Origin: Cavenderia fasciculata | Taxonomy: Eukaryota; Evosea; Eumycetozoa; Acytosteliales; Cavenderiaceae | Reading direction: 5' to 3' | NCBI RefSeq assembly: GCF_000203815.1 | Contig: NW_004457690.1 | Coordinates: 62,001 to 126,000, forward strand | Length of the DNA stretch: 64,000 bases | In this document: in pieces, positions 48,115 to 62,578 of the stretch | Layout: the number at the start of each line of letters is the position of its first letter | How positions within the stretch are numbered: position 1 is the stretch's first letter | Notes under the pieces: generated by a model | Seen by the model: the letters and a program-made list of their open reading frames with translations, nothing else | Told to the model about the DNA's origin: nothing | The model's database searches: none | Made by a program: the position numbers and the translations under genes

Positions 48115-49101
48115 CTTCCTATAACTATTATTACTACTATTACTATTACTATTACTATTATTATTTGATCGAGATTGGACTACTGATAAATGAATGAATA
48201 ATGATGAGGTTTAAATGTCGGAAAGGTAGTGTAGGTAGGGAAAAAAAAACGAATCAAAAAGCGTAAAAAATAAGCAATAAATCTAGATACTATAAGAGAT
48301 TTTGGTGGTTCTACAGATTTTGATGGTTCTATAGGTATTCTATAGATTCCTTATGGTTCGGTATATAGCCTCTTCGAATCGATTATATAAACAAAAAAGA
48401 ATATATCTCTAAGAATATTAATGGTAAATGGAATTCCAAAGAGAAGGAGTGATCCCTATGAATTCAATTTTAATTTCTTTTTAAACAATTTAAACATATG
48501 ACCATTTTTATTATTGTTGTCTTTGAAAGTCAAGAGAGGGAGTGATGTCGGGATCAGTATCACCTCGGATCAATACCAACAAATAAATCCTTTGTGCCGC
48601 CAGGGCTCACTCCTTGGTTGTCGAGAATTTAAAAAATATATTTCGGGGTTACGAAATATGGCTTTGATACCTTTGTCACGCATCATACAATCGAGATATT
48701 TTAAGATTTTCAATACAATGCGATGTCGATTATGACGCTTAACCTATAAATGGAAATATTAATATATTATATTATATTGAGGTTCTTATATTTCTCTATC
48801 TATCTATCTTTCCTTGTGGGCGCATCCAGGACAAAGTATTTATCATGTAACAAAAAAGAAGAAGATGTTGGACTGGGGATCCTCAATCGTGATGAACCAA
48901 CCTTTCGAAAGAGAGTGAAATGGGATATTGTTTGTTCATTGTTTGGATCCATTTTTACAAAACATTCCAAGAACATAAAAAAAAAAAACGGTGAATTACT
49001 TTTGTTGTACTTTTTACCAAAAAATCACCAATTCTCCCATCATTCAATAGAGCATTAAAACACCAACCTATTTATTAAATGATAGTTATAATATCACTTT
49101 T
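48115..49101. other. Intergenic region with coding-like remnants
   Basis: 48115-48500 is promoter-like. At 48528-48735 the base composition is more GC and the minus strand reads RIVLKILKYLDCMMRDKG, IKAIFRNPEIYFLNSRQP with one frame open for about 55 codons. At 48810-49050 the plus strand reads EDVGLGILNRDEPTFRKRVK and SLFGSIFTKHSKN. Neither is recognised. They may be relics of genes. A DUSE-like CCCATCA lies at 49036-49042. Confidence 0.4.
49036..49042 (+). promoter_or_regulatory. DUSE-like box (CCCATCA)
   Basis: Variant of the Dictyostelium upstream sequence element (A/T)CCCA(C/T)AA, 60 bases before the conserved 5' block of the ncRNA at 49102. The same variant precedes the ncRNA ending at 58982. 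Confidence 0.45.
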
Positions 49102-49281
49102 GGAGACGTGCAAAGGAACAGTGATACTTCGCAAATTTAACTAACTTCAGTCAGAGTAGCATACCTCAAATACTTTAATAGTATTTCCCGTAAACCTGTG
49201 TATACCATTGGTGCTTGGCAAACCTCTAGTGCCAGAGGGGTTTGTCAAGTACCATTACTCACTTTCCGCTATCACACTCTA
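49102..49281 (+). ncRNA. Putative structured ncRNA, same family as the 59 kb array (copy E)
   Basis: Shares the family's 5' block (GACGTGCAAAGGAACAG..ATACTTCGC), GTGTATACC at 49197-49205, and a 3' hairpin of 18 pairs (arms 49210-49227 and 49236-49253, three G-T wobbles, 8-base loop). The 3' end GCTATCACACTC precedes TTTT at 49282. The stem sequence is unrelated to those of the other copies, yet stem position and motif order are the same. It lies on the plus strand, about 9.7 kb from the array. Function unknown. Confidence 0.55.
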
Positions 49282-49966
49282 TTTTATTTAAAAGTGTAAA
49301 AAAAAGATATCTTTTTTAATAATTCTAAAAATAATAATAATAATTAGTGTACAGAGACACACCAAACAAGAGATAAATATATTTATTTAACAAACATTTT
49401 GAATTCGAATGGATGATTCCATTTCCTTAGCTACTAGATCTATCTAGCAGATTTGTAAATTTCATGTTTTGAGGGATCAGATGATTTTGTGCTCCTCTTA
49501 ACAAACAATGTGTGTATCAATGTGAACAATGAATTATAACAACCACATTGAGAAGAATCAGATCTGATCGCAACTCCTCAATTTGGCAAAGTTTCTACAA
49601 CTAGTACTAGTTGCAAAGTAGTCGTTCGGCGGCTTTGTTTTTTGTTGAAATTTACTTTACAGATATTATGGAGTAATGAATAGGTAGGTGTTTGGGATTT
49701 TAAAATGAAATTTTATTTTATTTAATTTTTTGAGGGGGTGCAGATGTGAAGGGTATGTCTCATTACTCCACATCTCTTCTCCCTCTTATATAACTTCATT
49801 CACTCTTCTCTTCTAGAATCATTCAATAATATAACTAGTAGTAGTAGTAGAATATTAGTATTTGTTTATTTACTATTCAAATTCATATATATATTTCACA
49901 AACTTATTAAAACTTTAATACTTTATTTATTTATAAATCTTCTTCTTAAAAGTAGTAGTAGTAGTA
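49282..49966. promoter_or_regulatory. Intergenic region upstream of homogentisate dioxygenase
   Basis: AT-rich; includes GGGGGTGCAGATGTG near 49735, a C/T-rich stretch near 49780 and TAGTAGTAG runs just before the ATG. No gene seen. Confidence 0.55.
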
Positions 49967-58976: not shown

Positions 58977-58981
58977 AAAAA

Positions 58982-59118
58982 GGCTGTGATTGCAGAGCTT
59001 GACGGATTTGACAATTGTACATTGTCAAAGGTATACACAGAGACCATGTCAACTAGCAGCTGTTTTCATCAATAGCGATTAATATGTAGCAAAGTAACAA
59101 GCATCTTTTGCACAACCC
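58982..59118 (-). ncRNA. Putative structured ncRNA, array copy A (divergent, short)
   Basis: Minus strand: 5' block GGGTTGTGCAAAAGATGCTTGTTACTTTGC, broken here as GTGCAAAAGATG plus TTACTTTGC, then GTGTATACC, a perfect 9-pair hairpin (arms 59007-59015 and 59021-59029, loop 5), then CTCTGCAATCACAGCC and TTTTT at 58977-58981. A DUSE-like CCCATCA lies at 59177-59183, about 60 bases upstream. It is about 50 bases shorter than its neighbours between the 5' block and the hairpin. Box ACA-like ACAGCC at the end recalls H/ACA RNAs, but no H box was found. Confidence 0.5.
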
Positions 59119-59176
59119 ACCAACAAGTATACTCATCAAACTATTTATGTTGTATCTTTTAACACCACCATTCATA

Positions 59177-59183
59177 TGATGGG
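59177..59183 (-). promoter_or_regulatory. DUSE-like box (CCCATCA) of copy A
   Basis: Variant box about 60 bases upstream of the RNA start inferred for copy A. Confidence 0.4.
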
Positions 59184-59229
59184 TTGATATTCTACTTATC
59201 TACATATATGCATGGAGAAAAAAAAAAGG

Positions 59230-59416
59230 AAGGTGTTTGCAGAGTCTCTGGGTTTGTTAGGTATCCCCAGAAATCATCCAGGAATACCTAACAAGTGTAT
59301 ACACAAGTTAATCAGCTGACACGACTTATCGTTTCATTCTTTTCAAGAGAATTTGTTGAGGTAATTTTAAGATAAAATTTAGCAAAGTAAGAGACATCCA
59401 TTGCACCGAGCCCAGC
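59230..59416 (-). ncRNA. Putative structured ncRNA, array copy B
   Basis: Minus strand RNA of about 187 nt. The 5' block is GGGCTCGGTGCAATGGATG then TCTCTTACTTTGC; GTGTATACAC follows near the 3' end, then a perfect 11-pair hairpin (arms 59254-59264 and 59284-59294), and GAGACTCTGCAAACACCTTCC before a T-run (59221-59227). GGTG and GTCTCT of the 5' block can pair with CACC and AGAGAC of the 3' end, closing the molecule. A consensus DUSE (CCCATAA) lies at 59474-59480, about 60 bases upstream. The ending in T-run suggests RNA polymerase III. Confidence 0.6.
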
Positions 59417-59473
59417 ATCGATTATGTAATGATCAATAGATAATTTCGGATTATCAGTAGATGTGATATTTGC

Positions 59474-59480
59474 TTATGGG
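59474..59480 (-). promoter_or_regulatory. DUSE box (CCCATAA) of copy B
   Basis: TCCCATAA on the minus strand fits the D. discoideum DUSE consensus (A/T)CCCA(C/T)AA and lies about 60 bases upstream of the conserved RNA start. Confidence 0.6.
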
Positions 59481-59565
59481 AGGGGTTGCCACTTTTTGTC
59501 ATTGTTTGCAAAAATTATCTTGGATATTTCCATACTTTACACCTTTTAAATTAATAGTAAAAAAA

Positions 59566-59753
59566 GGAAGGTGTTTGCAGAGTCTCTGGGTTTGTTAGGT
59601 ATCCCCAGAAATCATCCAGGAATACCTAACAAGGGTATACACATACGTTATCATATGATACAAGCAATTTGTTCTTCACAAGAGAAAATTTGTTGGTAAT
59701 TAATTTTAAGTTAAAATTTATCAAAGTAAGAGACATCCATTGCACCGAGCCCA
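59566..59753 (-). ncRNA. Putative structured ncRNA, array copy C
   Basis: Nearly the same as copy B, 338 bases away: same hairpin (arms 59592-59602 and 59622-59632), 5' block and 3' end, with differences mostly in the middle. DUSE CCCATAA at 59813-59819 and a T-run at 59559-59565. The upstream 60 bases with the DUSE are also conserved between B and C. Confidence 0.6.
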
Positions 59754-59812
59754 GGATTGATTAGGTAATGATCAATAGATAATTACAATTTATCAGTAGA
59801 TGTGATATTGGC

Positions 59813-59819
59813 TTATGGG
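59813..59819 (-). promoter_or_regulatory. DUSE box (CCCATAA) of copy C
   Basis: Same sequence and spacing as for copy B. Confidence 0.6.
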
Positions 59820-59906
59820 AGACGAGCAAACTTTTTGGTGATACTCTTGAAAAAAATGATAATTCATGGAATACTTTTTGTTCCTTTGAAAAATGTTCCA
59901 CAAAAA

Positions 59907-60098
59907 GAGGTGTTTGCAGAGTCTCTGTTTATTGAAAGTATTCCTAAAGGAGTTTTGAAAACTTCCTCTTTGAACACTACCAATTGTTATACACAAGATA
60001 TGAAAGCGGAGCACGTCAGCCTAAATTTAAATTCCACGGAAATTCTAAATACTACAGATAGTTAAAAGTCAAAGTAAGAGACAATTCCTTGGCACCCC
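59907..60098 (-). ncRNA. Putative structured ncRNA, array copy D (divergent)
   Basis: Minus strand: GGGGTGCCAAGGAATTG then TCTCTTACTTTGAC at the 5' end, TTGTGTATAAC before an imperfect hairpin (arms about 59946-59956 and 59958-59971, different sequence from B/C), then AGAGACTCTGCAAACACC and TTTTT at 59902-59906. DUSE CCCATAA at 60157-60163, again about 60 bases upstream. Conserved ends with a changed middle suggest a functional RNA rather than a neutral repeat. Confidence 0.58.
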
Positions 60099-60156
60099 AT
60101 AAAGTGATAAACAGTACAATCACTTAACTTGGTTCAGTTGATAGGTAAATAAAATA

Positions 60157-60163
60157 TTATGGG
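60157..60163 (-). promoter_or_regulatory. DUSE box (CCCATAA) of copy D
   Basis: Same box and spacing although the flanking sequence has diverged from copies B and C. Confidence 0.6.
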
Positions 60164-60303: not shown

Positions 60304-62578
60304 TTAGTTTGATGGAATATGCATATTGTCAGAATTACTACCACCCAAAATAGAATTTAATGGAGAATTAAAATATTGTGGTTTGGCATTAAAACCAACA
60401 TGTTTCTCCAAGACGTAACCAGTGTACAATAGGAGATCTTCTTCCCACCATCTACCCATGAGTTGGAGACCGATGGGGAGATTGTTTTTATCGACACTGA
60501 CGGGAATGGTTAGGCCCGGGACACCGGTAATGTTGCCCAAGAATGCATATTTCATCAACTCGGCGACAGCAGTGAGATTAGACTCACCAGTGGCGAGAAC
60601 AGATGGACGAATCTCTGGCGAGGTGGATGCTGTAGATGGGGTGACAATGATATCGACATTTTCAAAGATTGCTTTGAGTTGGTTGATAGCATAGGTTCTA
60701 ATACGACAACTATGCAAGTATTCACCGCCACTGACAAACTCCATCATTGACAATGATGCTCTAGTATCCAAGTGGAATTGATTCTTGTATTTACCCATAT
60801 ACTTGCTCATCGAGTTATTCATCTCTGACAAAATAATAACAGCTTGTGCCAATCTAATATATAATAAATGATTAATCTTGATTGGTACAACTTGTGCTCC
60901 TTGTTCTACCAATATTTCAATTGATTCTAGAAAATATAAATAAATTAAAAAAAACAAATTAATAAATAAATATTTTCTTTTTTTCTTTTCCTTTTTCTTT
61001 TTTGTTTTGTTTTTCTATATATATTTACTTTTAAAAGAAATACGAATTTCTTCAGTACAATCATCGACATAATCTTGATAGATACCAATACGAAGACCGG
61101 TTAGAGGTTTTTCTTTTGGGATTTTACTAAAGTTGGGGATAAGGGGATCGGGTTGGACAAGTGTTTGATGATCACGTGGATCCTTACCTGCCAATGCAGC
61201 ATATCCAATAGCACAATCAATGACACTGCTTGCGATTGGACCGACATGACCAACTGAATAACAAAGGTCAAAACAACCAGTATGTGAAGTTCTTGCATAG
61301 GTTGGTTTTAATCCAACCACTCCACAAAGAGCAGCTGGTACTCTAATAGATCCTCCTCCATCACATCCAATACTAACTAAAAAAAGAAATACAAATATTA
61401 ATATTAATATTGTAATACAAATATAAATATATATTTTGGTTTATATAATTACTTGGATTTAAACCAGAAGAAACAGTTGAAGCAGAACCAGATGAACTAC
61501 CACCAGGATAATAATCAAGATTGAATGGATTACGAGTGAAACCATAATGAACATTGTACCCAAGTGTACTGATACCAATCTCATGCATATTATTCTTTCC
61601 TACCAGGATGGCACCCATATTTCGGAGTCGTTCAGCACAATCTGAATCTACTTGCCATACAGGACTGTCTCTAAGGAATGCAGTACCACAGGTAGTTCTA
61701 TAACCCTTCATATTCAATTCATCCTTGATTGAAATGGGGACACCGTCGAGAATAGAGAGTGGGGTGCCTGCTTCCCATCTCTCTTGACTCTTGGCAGCTT
61801 GCTCCAAAATGTCGTCTTCACGAACACTAATAAATGCCTTGAGTGGGATAGGTTGTGCATCGGAATGTTTTTGACACTCTACAAATGCCTTGGCCACAGC
61901 AACTGCATTGGTCGATTTGTCTACATAGGCCTTGTTGTATTTGAGAGCCGAATGCGATAGATTCAAAAGATGGTCATTCAACGAGAGCACTGAAGCATCC
62001 TTTAAAAACATTTCAGGTGAATAGGTCTCATAGGATGCAATTTGAATGGGAACATTCATCTTTTGTACATTTGGATAGGGTGTAACACCATCTTCAACCT
62101 TGAATTTAAACATTTCATCAATTCTATTCTTTTTAAACAAGAATGGTATGAAAAAGTTTCTAAAATCAAAAAAAGGGAAATAAATGAAAAAGAGGTGAAG
62201 GAGAAAGAGTTAATTAAATGAAATGTTTTGGTTCAATAAGAACAACAACAACTATGACTATTACTATCAAATGCAATTTACATACTTGAATGGATAAGAT
62301 TCACAAATGAATACAGTGAATGATAGTACAGCACCGGTTGCACAAGGTGTAACTACTTTAACCAAATCATATGATGGTTCATCTTGCTTTAATTTCTTTT
62401 TCTTATTAGCTTCATTTGTAGTTGCTATATAATGAGAATGAAGAATAAAGAATGAGTTGATATGATCTAGTAGTAGAGAGTAGTAGAGAGTAGGGGAGAG
62501 GAGAGAGATCTATTTACCCATGTATACAAGACCAATGACCAGTAAACCTGATATTACACTTCCAATATTATCCAACAT
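60304..62578 (-). CDS. faah: Fatty-acid amide hydrolase (amidase-signature family)
   Basis: Exons 62578-62518, 62424-62286, 62159-61453, 61376-61029 and 60926-60304 join in phase to 625 aa. N-terminal membrane segments (VISGLLVIGLVYM, AVLSFTVFICES) anchor it. The Ser-Ser-Lys catalytic triad of amidases is visible: Lys in VPISIKDELN, the first Ser in the GGGSIRVPAA motif, and the nucleophile in that region together with PGGSSSGSA. GFTRNPFNLDYYPGGSSSG and GVVGLKPTYARTSHTG are FAAH-like. It cleaves N-acylethanolamines and other fatty amides. Length matches plant-type FAAH. Confidence 0.9.

Follow-up and report, generated by a model that had tools for sequence, protein, structure and literature searches.

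The vault is among the largest eukaryotic ribonucleoprotein particles, a large barrel whose function is unsettled, and the human vault RNA genes carry both a box A and a box B. D. discoideum is a current vault model, for which cryo-tomography and proximity labelling of MVP are reported; the labelling study gives the TEP1 orthologue Q54CB5 as enriched (PMC13100048). The TROVE domain of TEP1 is described as binding vault RNA, and the vaults of TEP1-knockout mice as being without it. The T. brucei vault RNA is reported to have been proposed from its structure and from short 5′ and 3′ stretches of the bulged terminal helix; the trypanosome RNA co-precipitates with TEP1, and one Leishmania vault RNA is given as about 190 nt (PMC9326685). 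Human vtRNA1-3 is drawn with an outer stem, a 5/5 internal loop (CUUUA / GCUCU) and an inner stem, GCUC-a-GCGG / CCGC-GGGC, that has one bulged base on its 5′ strand and is followed by UUACUUCG. The exact arrangement is that of vtRNA1-3 only, and the published folds of vtRNA1-1 and 1-2 have part of UUACUUCG drawn as paired (PMC10087102). No dictyostelid vault RNA was found named in the vault literature covered, for the most part open-access papers.

Two other kinds of small RNA come into consideration. Y RNAs are described as having a GUG-CAC element and, in the loop, the motif UUAUC (PMC4726728). The genes of dictyostelid class I RNAs (RF01414) are reported to cluster (PMC7919456). The genome of Cavenderia fasciculata contains eight class I RNA genes at five loci (L081, L084, L085, L086 and L087, on contigs 2, 3, 7, 14 and 18), and three of these loci hold a pair on opposite strands. 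The class I form here is AAGA..CCCUUMCURCAA ... AGGGAUCUGU; its terminal stem has an extra 5′-strand base in six of the eight RNAs, and a single bulge appears in four of the minimum-energy folds.

We analysed a 64,000-nucleotide window (positions 62,001–126,000 of contig 15) and made genome-wide pattern searches over the 31.0-Mb assembly of 21 contigs. The window contains an array (58,978–60,098) of four minus-strand small-RNA units that lie downstream of a gene for an amidase (the open reading frames at 60,307–60,957 and 61,376–62,140 match Pfam PF01425). We label the copies A to D in order of descending coordinate, corresponding to D, C, B and A of an earlier note on this DNA. Each unit has, in order, a 5′ block (GTGC.A.RGA or near), UUACUUUG, a GTGTATAC or GTGTATAA box, a hairpin, a CTCTGCAANCAC end and a T-run. 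The window has four mismatch-free occurrences of the 3′ block CTCTGCAANCAC, every one within the array, and the 5′ block occurs three times at up to three mismatches, with 0.07 expected; in copy A it has a two-base insertion relative to the common form. These counts confirm the four minus-strand units with shared blocks, hairpin and T-run that the earlier note had described, and the spacing of the 3′ parts is 338 and 339 bases, as it had stated.

Scores of the individual copies come from R1, a covariance model built from copies A–D, so named in what follows. Copy A is a predicted transcript of 197 nt with its U-run (59902–60098, minus strand; R1 163 bits with A in the model, fold and ends) and has the DUSE sequence CCCATAA at 60157–60163 (minus), with a GG-run at +58. 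Copy B (59562–59752, minus; 191 nt; R1 199 bits with B in the model, ends) has CCCATAA at 59813–59819 (minus) and a GG-run at +60; its 3′ hairpin, P3, is at 59592–59632 (minus), an inverted repeat with covariation. Copy C (59224–59413, minus; 190 nt; R1 211 bits with C in the model, fold z −4.2, ends) has CCCATAA at 59474–59480 (minus), again with the GG-run at +60, the motif UUACUUUG, predicted to be unpaired, at 59383–59390 (minus) next to the inner stem's 5′ strand, and P3 at 59254–59294 (minus), likewise an inverted repeat with covariation. Copy D is shorter (58978–59118, minus; 141 nt; R1 124 bits with D in the model, fold and ends) and has the DUSE variant CCCATCA at 59177–59183 (minus), with the GG-run at +58.

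The family extends beyond the array. A covariance-model search, proposed for dictyostelid genomes in the earlier note and made here on the window with the A–D model, finds copy E at 49,098–49,284 on the plus strand (50.1 bits, E outside the model; E-value 1.2e-8 over the window). Its predicted transcript is 184 nt (49102–49285, plus; fold z −4.1, ends), and the DUSE variant CCCATCA, not used in finding the copy, lies at 49036–49042 (plus), with a gap of 65 to GTG. Copy E is about 10 kb from the array, on the opposite strand, upstream of a homogentisate dioxygenase gene. Copy F, on contig 18, was found by a 5′-block pattern and is matched by R1 at 32.4 bits (E 1.3e-5 over 15 kb, filters off). 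A T-run ends all six copies. The family is thus both clustered and dispersed: the description as a tandem array holds for the four units, and has to be widened for E, 10 kb away, and F, on another contig.

We consider six copies a lower bound. A gapped pattern of DUSE plus 5′ block, derived from the known copies, occurs at five places in the whole genome, namely A, B, C, D and F (reversed control 0); it misses E, which has AUACUUCG. A looser 5′ pattern gives 31 places in the genome, of which five are family members, and its control gives 20; a 3′ pattern gives 17 rows at six places, four of which are A–D. Pattern loci L003, L019, L027, L043 and L044 were inspected by eye. R1 run over 63 loci with default filters returned four matches (best E 1.4), none convincing; this silence weighs little, because the run missed F, which is detectable only with filters off. 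Within the array, R1 also gives two plus-strand matches on the window (24.8 and 22.8 bits), which we take for the palindromic hairpins read in reverse.

Copies B and C are recent duplicates as judged by their sequences, with identities of 25/25 in the 5′ block, 71/72 in the 3′ block and 59/73 plus 11 gaps in the variable region (59,305–59,382 in C; 59,643–59,721 in B). Because the variable regions diverge more than the 5′ and 3′ blocks, relaxed or paralogue-specific selection is suggested for them. That the units are degenerate repeats or a SINE-like element and not RNA genes, as the tandem arrangement and the recent duplication of B and C might suggest, is scarcely credible in view of this pattern of conservation, of the compensatory changes in P2 and P3 described below, and of a 301-base copy-C query that matches only C and B genome-wide. 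On the result of that genome search a mobile element was rejected.

The sequence CCCATNA precedes all six copies, with CCCATAA at A, B and C and CCCATCA at D, as had been noted. CCCATAA is not enriched across the window (8 found, 9.4 expected), so that it is informative by position only. The distance from the box to GTG in copies A to F is 61, 67, 67, 63, 65 and 69 bases; the figure of about 60 bases to the 5′ block given earlier can be refined to 61–69 for the GTGC block, and what lies at a steadier 58–60 bases past the box in all six copies is the start of the GG-run (a regularity spotted post hoc, without a null). Copy D has a second GG three bases before its GG-run. Copies E and F provide an independent promoter test, since the box played no part in finding them; CCCATNA is present at each (gaps 65 and 69), in a band where its background is 45 of 18,226 sampled positions (0.25%).

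Other small-RNA genes of the same genome have the same spacing. The U6 gene has CCCATAA 58 bases ahead of its start, and the eight class I RNAs have the box 57–61 bases upstream (56–60 when counted to CAAG). Class I control loci were obtained with a pattern that requires the box, which gave seven matches, six of them class I by eye, against six for the reversed control. Two more class I genes, on the minus strand at L085 and L087, adjoin pattern loci and were found without requiring the box; one of them is among the two class I genes that reach the RF01414 threshold. In the minimum-energy folds of all six copies the GG-run pairs with the bases just ahead of the T-run and closes the outer stem. 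From the match of its spacing to the U6 and class I controls, the RNA probably starts at the GG-run.

A second U6-like stretch (L089, contig 12, 1,214,667–1,214,764, minus strand) lies 3 kb from the U6 gene (L088). It scores 32.7 bits, below threshold, and retains the 3′ part; a CCCA..A box was not found in the 200 bases upstream. It is probably a U6 pseudogene.

The copies share a common computed fold: an outer stem P1, an internal loop, an inner stem P2, the unpaired UUACUUYG, a variable region, a GUGUAUAC-like box and the hairpin P3, from which the chain returns to P2. P1 consists of GUG/CAC and flanking pairs, and the internal loop is C.A. / GC.A. (CCAA in copy A). P2 has a 5′-strand bulge, which is a single base in five copies and three bases in A. 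P2 and P3 vary in sequence and yet stay paired. In the alignment of A–D, 98% of cells are paired and 9 of 27 pairs have double-sided changes, against 3.0 in shuffles. With all six copies the values are 96.4% and 16 of 27, against 6.7 in shuffles, a count that leans towards the fold because the model itself placed E and F in the alignment; in controls with slid partners, pairing of the six copies falls from 96% to 38–48%. The individual minimum-energy folds of E and F contain P1, the bulged P2 and P3. Copy F has no P3 letters in the six-copy alignment, but folded by itself it forms a hairpin at that position. Folding energy is a weak argument alone: z is −4.2 for C and −4.1 for E, with nothing unusual for A (−0.8), D (−0.2) and F (−1.3; n = 5, B excluded).

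The sequence GUGUAUAC, nearly palindromic, adjoins P3 in B, C, D and E (sites in the window at 59,026–59,039, 59,292–59,305, 59,630–59,643 and 49,198–49,205). Its counterpart is GUGUAUAA in copy A and, by eye, GCGUAUAA in copy F.

The covariation, the presence of the box in E and F and the occurrence of the same box at the U6 and class I genes argue for what the earlier note had proposed, a DUSE-driven family of structured RNAs with genes of a Pol III-like type. As far as sequence can tell, the copies almost certainly represent a real gene family of this kind. The Rfam scan that had been suggested as a check gives no family at threshold in the whole window, nor in F; relaxed scans of A–D, E and F give chance-level matches only, and no tRNA was found in the search. 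A description of the family was found neither in Rfam 15 nor in the literature search, and "apparently undescribed" is upheld to that extent. As a claim to a new kind of RNA it probably fails, given that the terminal module is vault-like.

We propose that each unit is a gene for a small, structured non-coding RNA, about 141–197 nt long. Transcription would be driven by the external DUSE, start at the GG-run 58–60 bases downstream and stop in the T-run, as in the U6 gene. The ends of the RNA would pair into a terminal helix, made up of an outer stem, an internal loop and a bulged inner stem, that presents the unpaired UUACUUYG; in the remainder, a fast-evolving region would precede the GUGUAUAC-like box and hairpin. 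A TEP1-type TROVE protein may bind the terminal helix and motif and connect them to the vault particle, and the variable region would differ between paralogues. We lean towards regarding the family as one that functions in the manner of vault RNA and is a candidate for the vault RNA of this dictyostelid. The broader proposition, that these are dictyostelid vault RNAs whose bulged helix and UUACUUYG module are common to Amoebozoa and animals, with promoters that differ (DUSE versus boxes A and B), we put at an even chance.

The comparison is carried by the terminal module. A bulged terminal helix made of the 5′ and 3′ ends is present in the predicted folds of the copies. Directly 3′ of the 5′ strand of the inner stem, the position of UUACUUCG in vtRNA1-3, all six copies have seven of its eight letters. 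The vtRNA1-3 motif scores 12.25 on the matrix of the six copies, within the range of the members scored in sample (10.66–13.83). Leave-one-out scores are 7.34 for E and 11.37–13.43 for the other copies, and vtRNA1-3 scores 10.51 once E, which has the UUCG form, is left out of the matrix. The chance of at least 12.25 at that place is 3.5e-5 (uniform composition) or 6.5e-5 (AT-rich), for two registers and uncorrected for the number of families considered. Several other families had been considered before the vault comparison was made, and we estimate that this raises the effective chance to perhaps 1e-3 to 1e-2. In genomic DNA the motif occurs at 29 of 515,158 positions (window plus 64 loci, partly motif-selected).

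Other comparisons speak against the vault reading or add little to it. Between the internal loops, agreement is limited to C / GC (0.14 and 2.27 bits). The Rfam Vault model is absent among the matches reported at E ≤ 10 for A–D, E and F, and so the family is not filed under Vault in Rfam terms. The best matches to boxes A and B in the copies are no better than in shuffles. These results bear on the view that the family is lineage-specific, DUSE-driven and unrelated to vault RNA, the motif having arisen by chance or by convergence on a common protein-binding signal. The lack of any Rfam match beyond chance, the barely fitting internal loops, the restriction of known copies to one genome, and the GUGUAUAC-like box and 3′ hairpin, for which no vault RNA counterpart is known to us, would all be expected of such a family. 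We nevertheless hold it to be unlikely, at perhaps one chance among several, since the order of elements and the motif match vault RNA at the equivalent place, and dictyostelid vaults are reported to contain TEP1 (PMC13100048), a protein that has vault RNA among its known partners.

Class I RNAs share with the family the DUSE, its spacing and the clustering of genes, and copy D (AAGA-U-GCUUG-UUACU ... CAAGC-UCUG) resembles the class I form. A U-rich motif beside the terminal stem, which is often bulged, is common to both and may reflect a distant relation. The family could then be a long offshoot of dictyostelid class I RNA that kept the terminal stem and the U-rich motif, added an outer stem and enlarged the interior. 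RF01414 is below threshold for every copy, though among the eight class I RNAs themselves it reaches threshold for two only. A class I model of our own, made from this genome's eight RNAs of that class and run on the window plus L044, yields 23 matches at E ≤ 10. None of them covers the terminal module of any copy, and one lies in the interior of F (11.8 bits, E 2). At best, the copies match TTMCTRCAA with two to three mismatches, agreement with the class I motif is weak (4.33 bits, P 1e-2 to 2e-2), and its CAA is missing. The stem end is CUG in four of the six copies and the class I CUGU in none. Membership in class I (RF01414) was rejected, as the class I models miss the copies and the RNAs are predicted at 141–197 nt as against about 60. 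The offshoot, to which the same silence of both models and the same lengths apply, strikes us as improbable.

The remaining comparison is with a Y RNA-like RNA bound by the Ro60 protein. Bulged paired ends, a variable loop and oligo-U (in the family, as predicted from the T-run) link Y RNAs and the family, and GUG-CAC occurs in each; it forms the outer stem in the family but lies in the upper stem of Y RNAs. The Y RNA lower stem, with seven pairs, a bulged C and a three-base bulge opposite, followed by UUAUC, does not correspond to the family fold, which has no three-base bulge opposite a single one and has UUACUUYG instead of UUAUC. No Rfam match to Y RNA is reported for A–D, E and F. We judge a Y RNA-like identity to be very improbable.

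If the vault reading is true, the RNA of the vault particle is identified in a lineage that offers a genetically tractable model, and attention is drawn to the module bound by TEP1. With six members and a defined promoter, fold and motif, the candidate family opens the RNA component of the vault to testing. If the reading fails, what is left is a family of DUSE-driven RNAs, strongly covarying and unmatched in Rfam, to stand beside class I.

Set against known systems, the family is like the U6 gene of this genome in its promoter only, with CCCATAA 58 bases before the start and a T-run end, the RNA itself being unrelated. It is like class I RNA in DUSE and spacing, clusters, a short terminal stem that is bulged in some, a motif at the 5′ strand and a variable interior, and unlike it in that class I RNAs are about 60 nt, have no outer stem, and here have the motif CUUMCURCAA and the end CUGU. 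With Y RNA and nematode sbRNA it has in common the bulged paired ends, variable loop and, as predicted, oligo-U, and differs from them in bulge order, position of GUG-CAC and loop motif, again with no Rfam match. From vault RNA it differs by an external DUSE in place of boxes A and B, by an interior longer than the human one, and by the GUGUAUAC-like box and 3′ hairpin, for which we know of no vault RNA counterpart. The predicted lengths of 141–197 nt compare with vault RNAs given as 86–99 nt in human, 141 in rat and about 190 in Leishmania. Human vault RNA genes are described as originating by tandem duplication, comparable to the array here. Human and trypanosomatid vault RNAs and the family are alike in paired ends, a bulged terminal helix, an internal loop and, as predicted for the family, an oligo-U end, and vtRNA1-3 is further alike in having an inner stem with a 5′-strand bulge and UUACUUCG directly after it.
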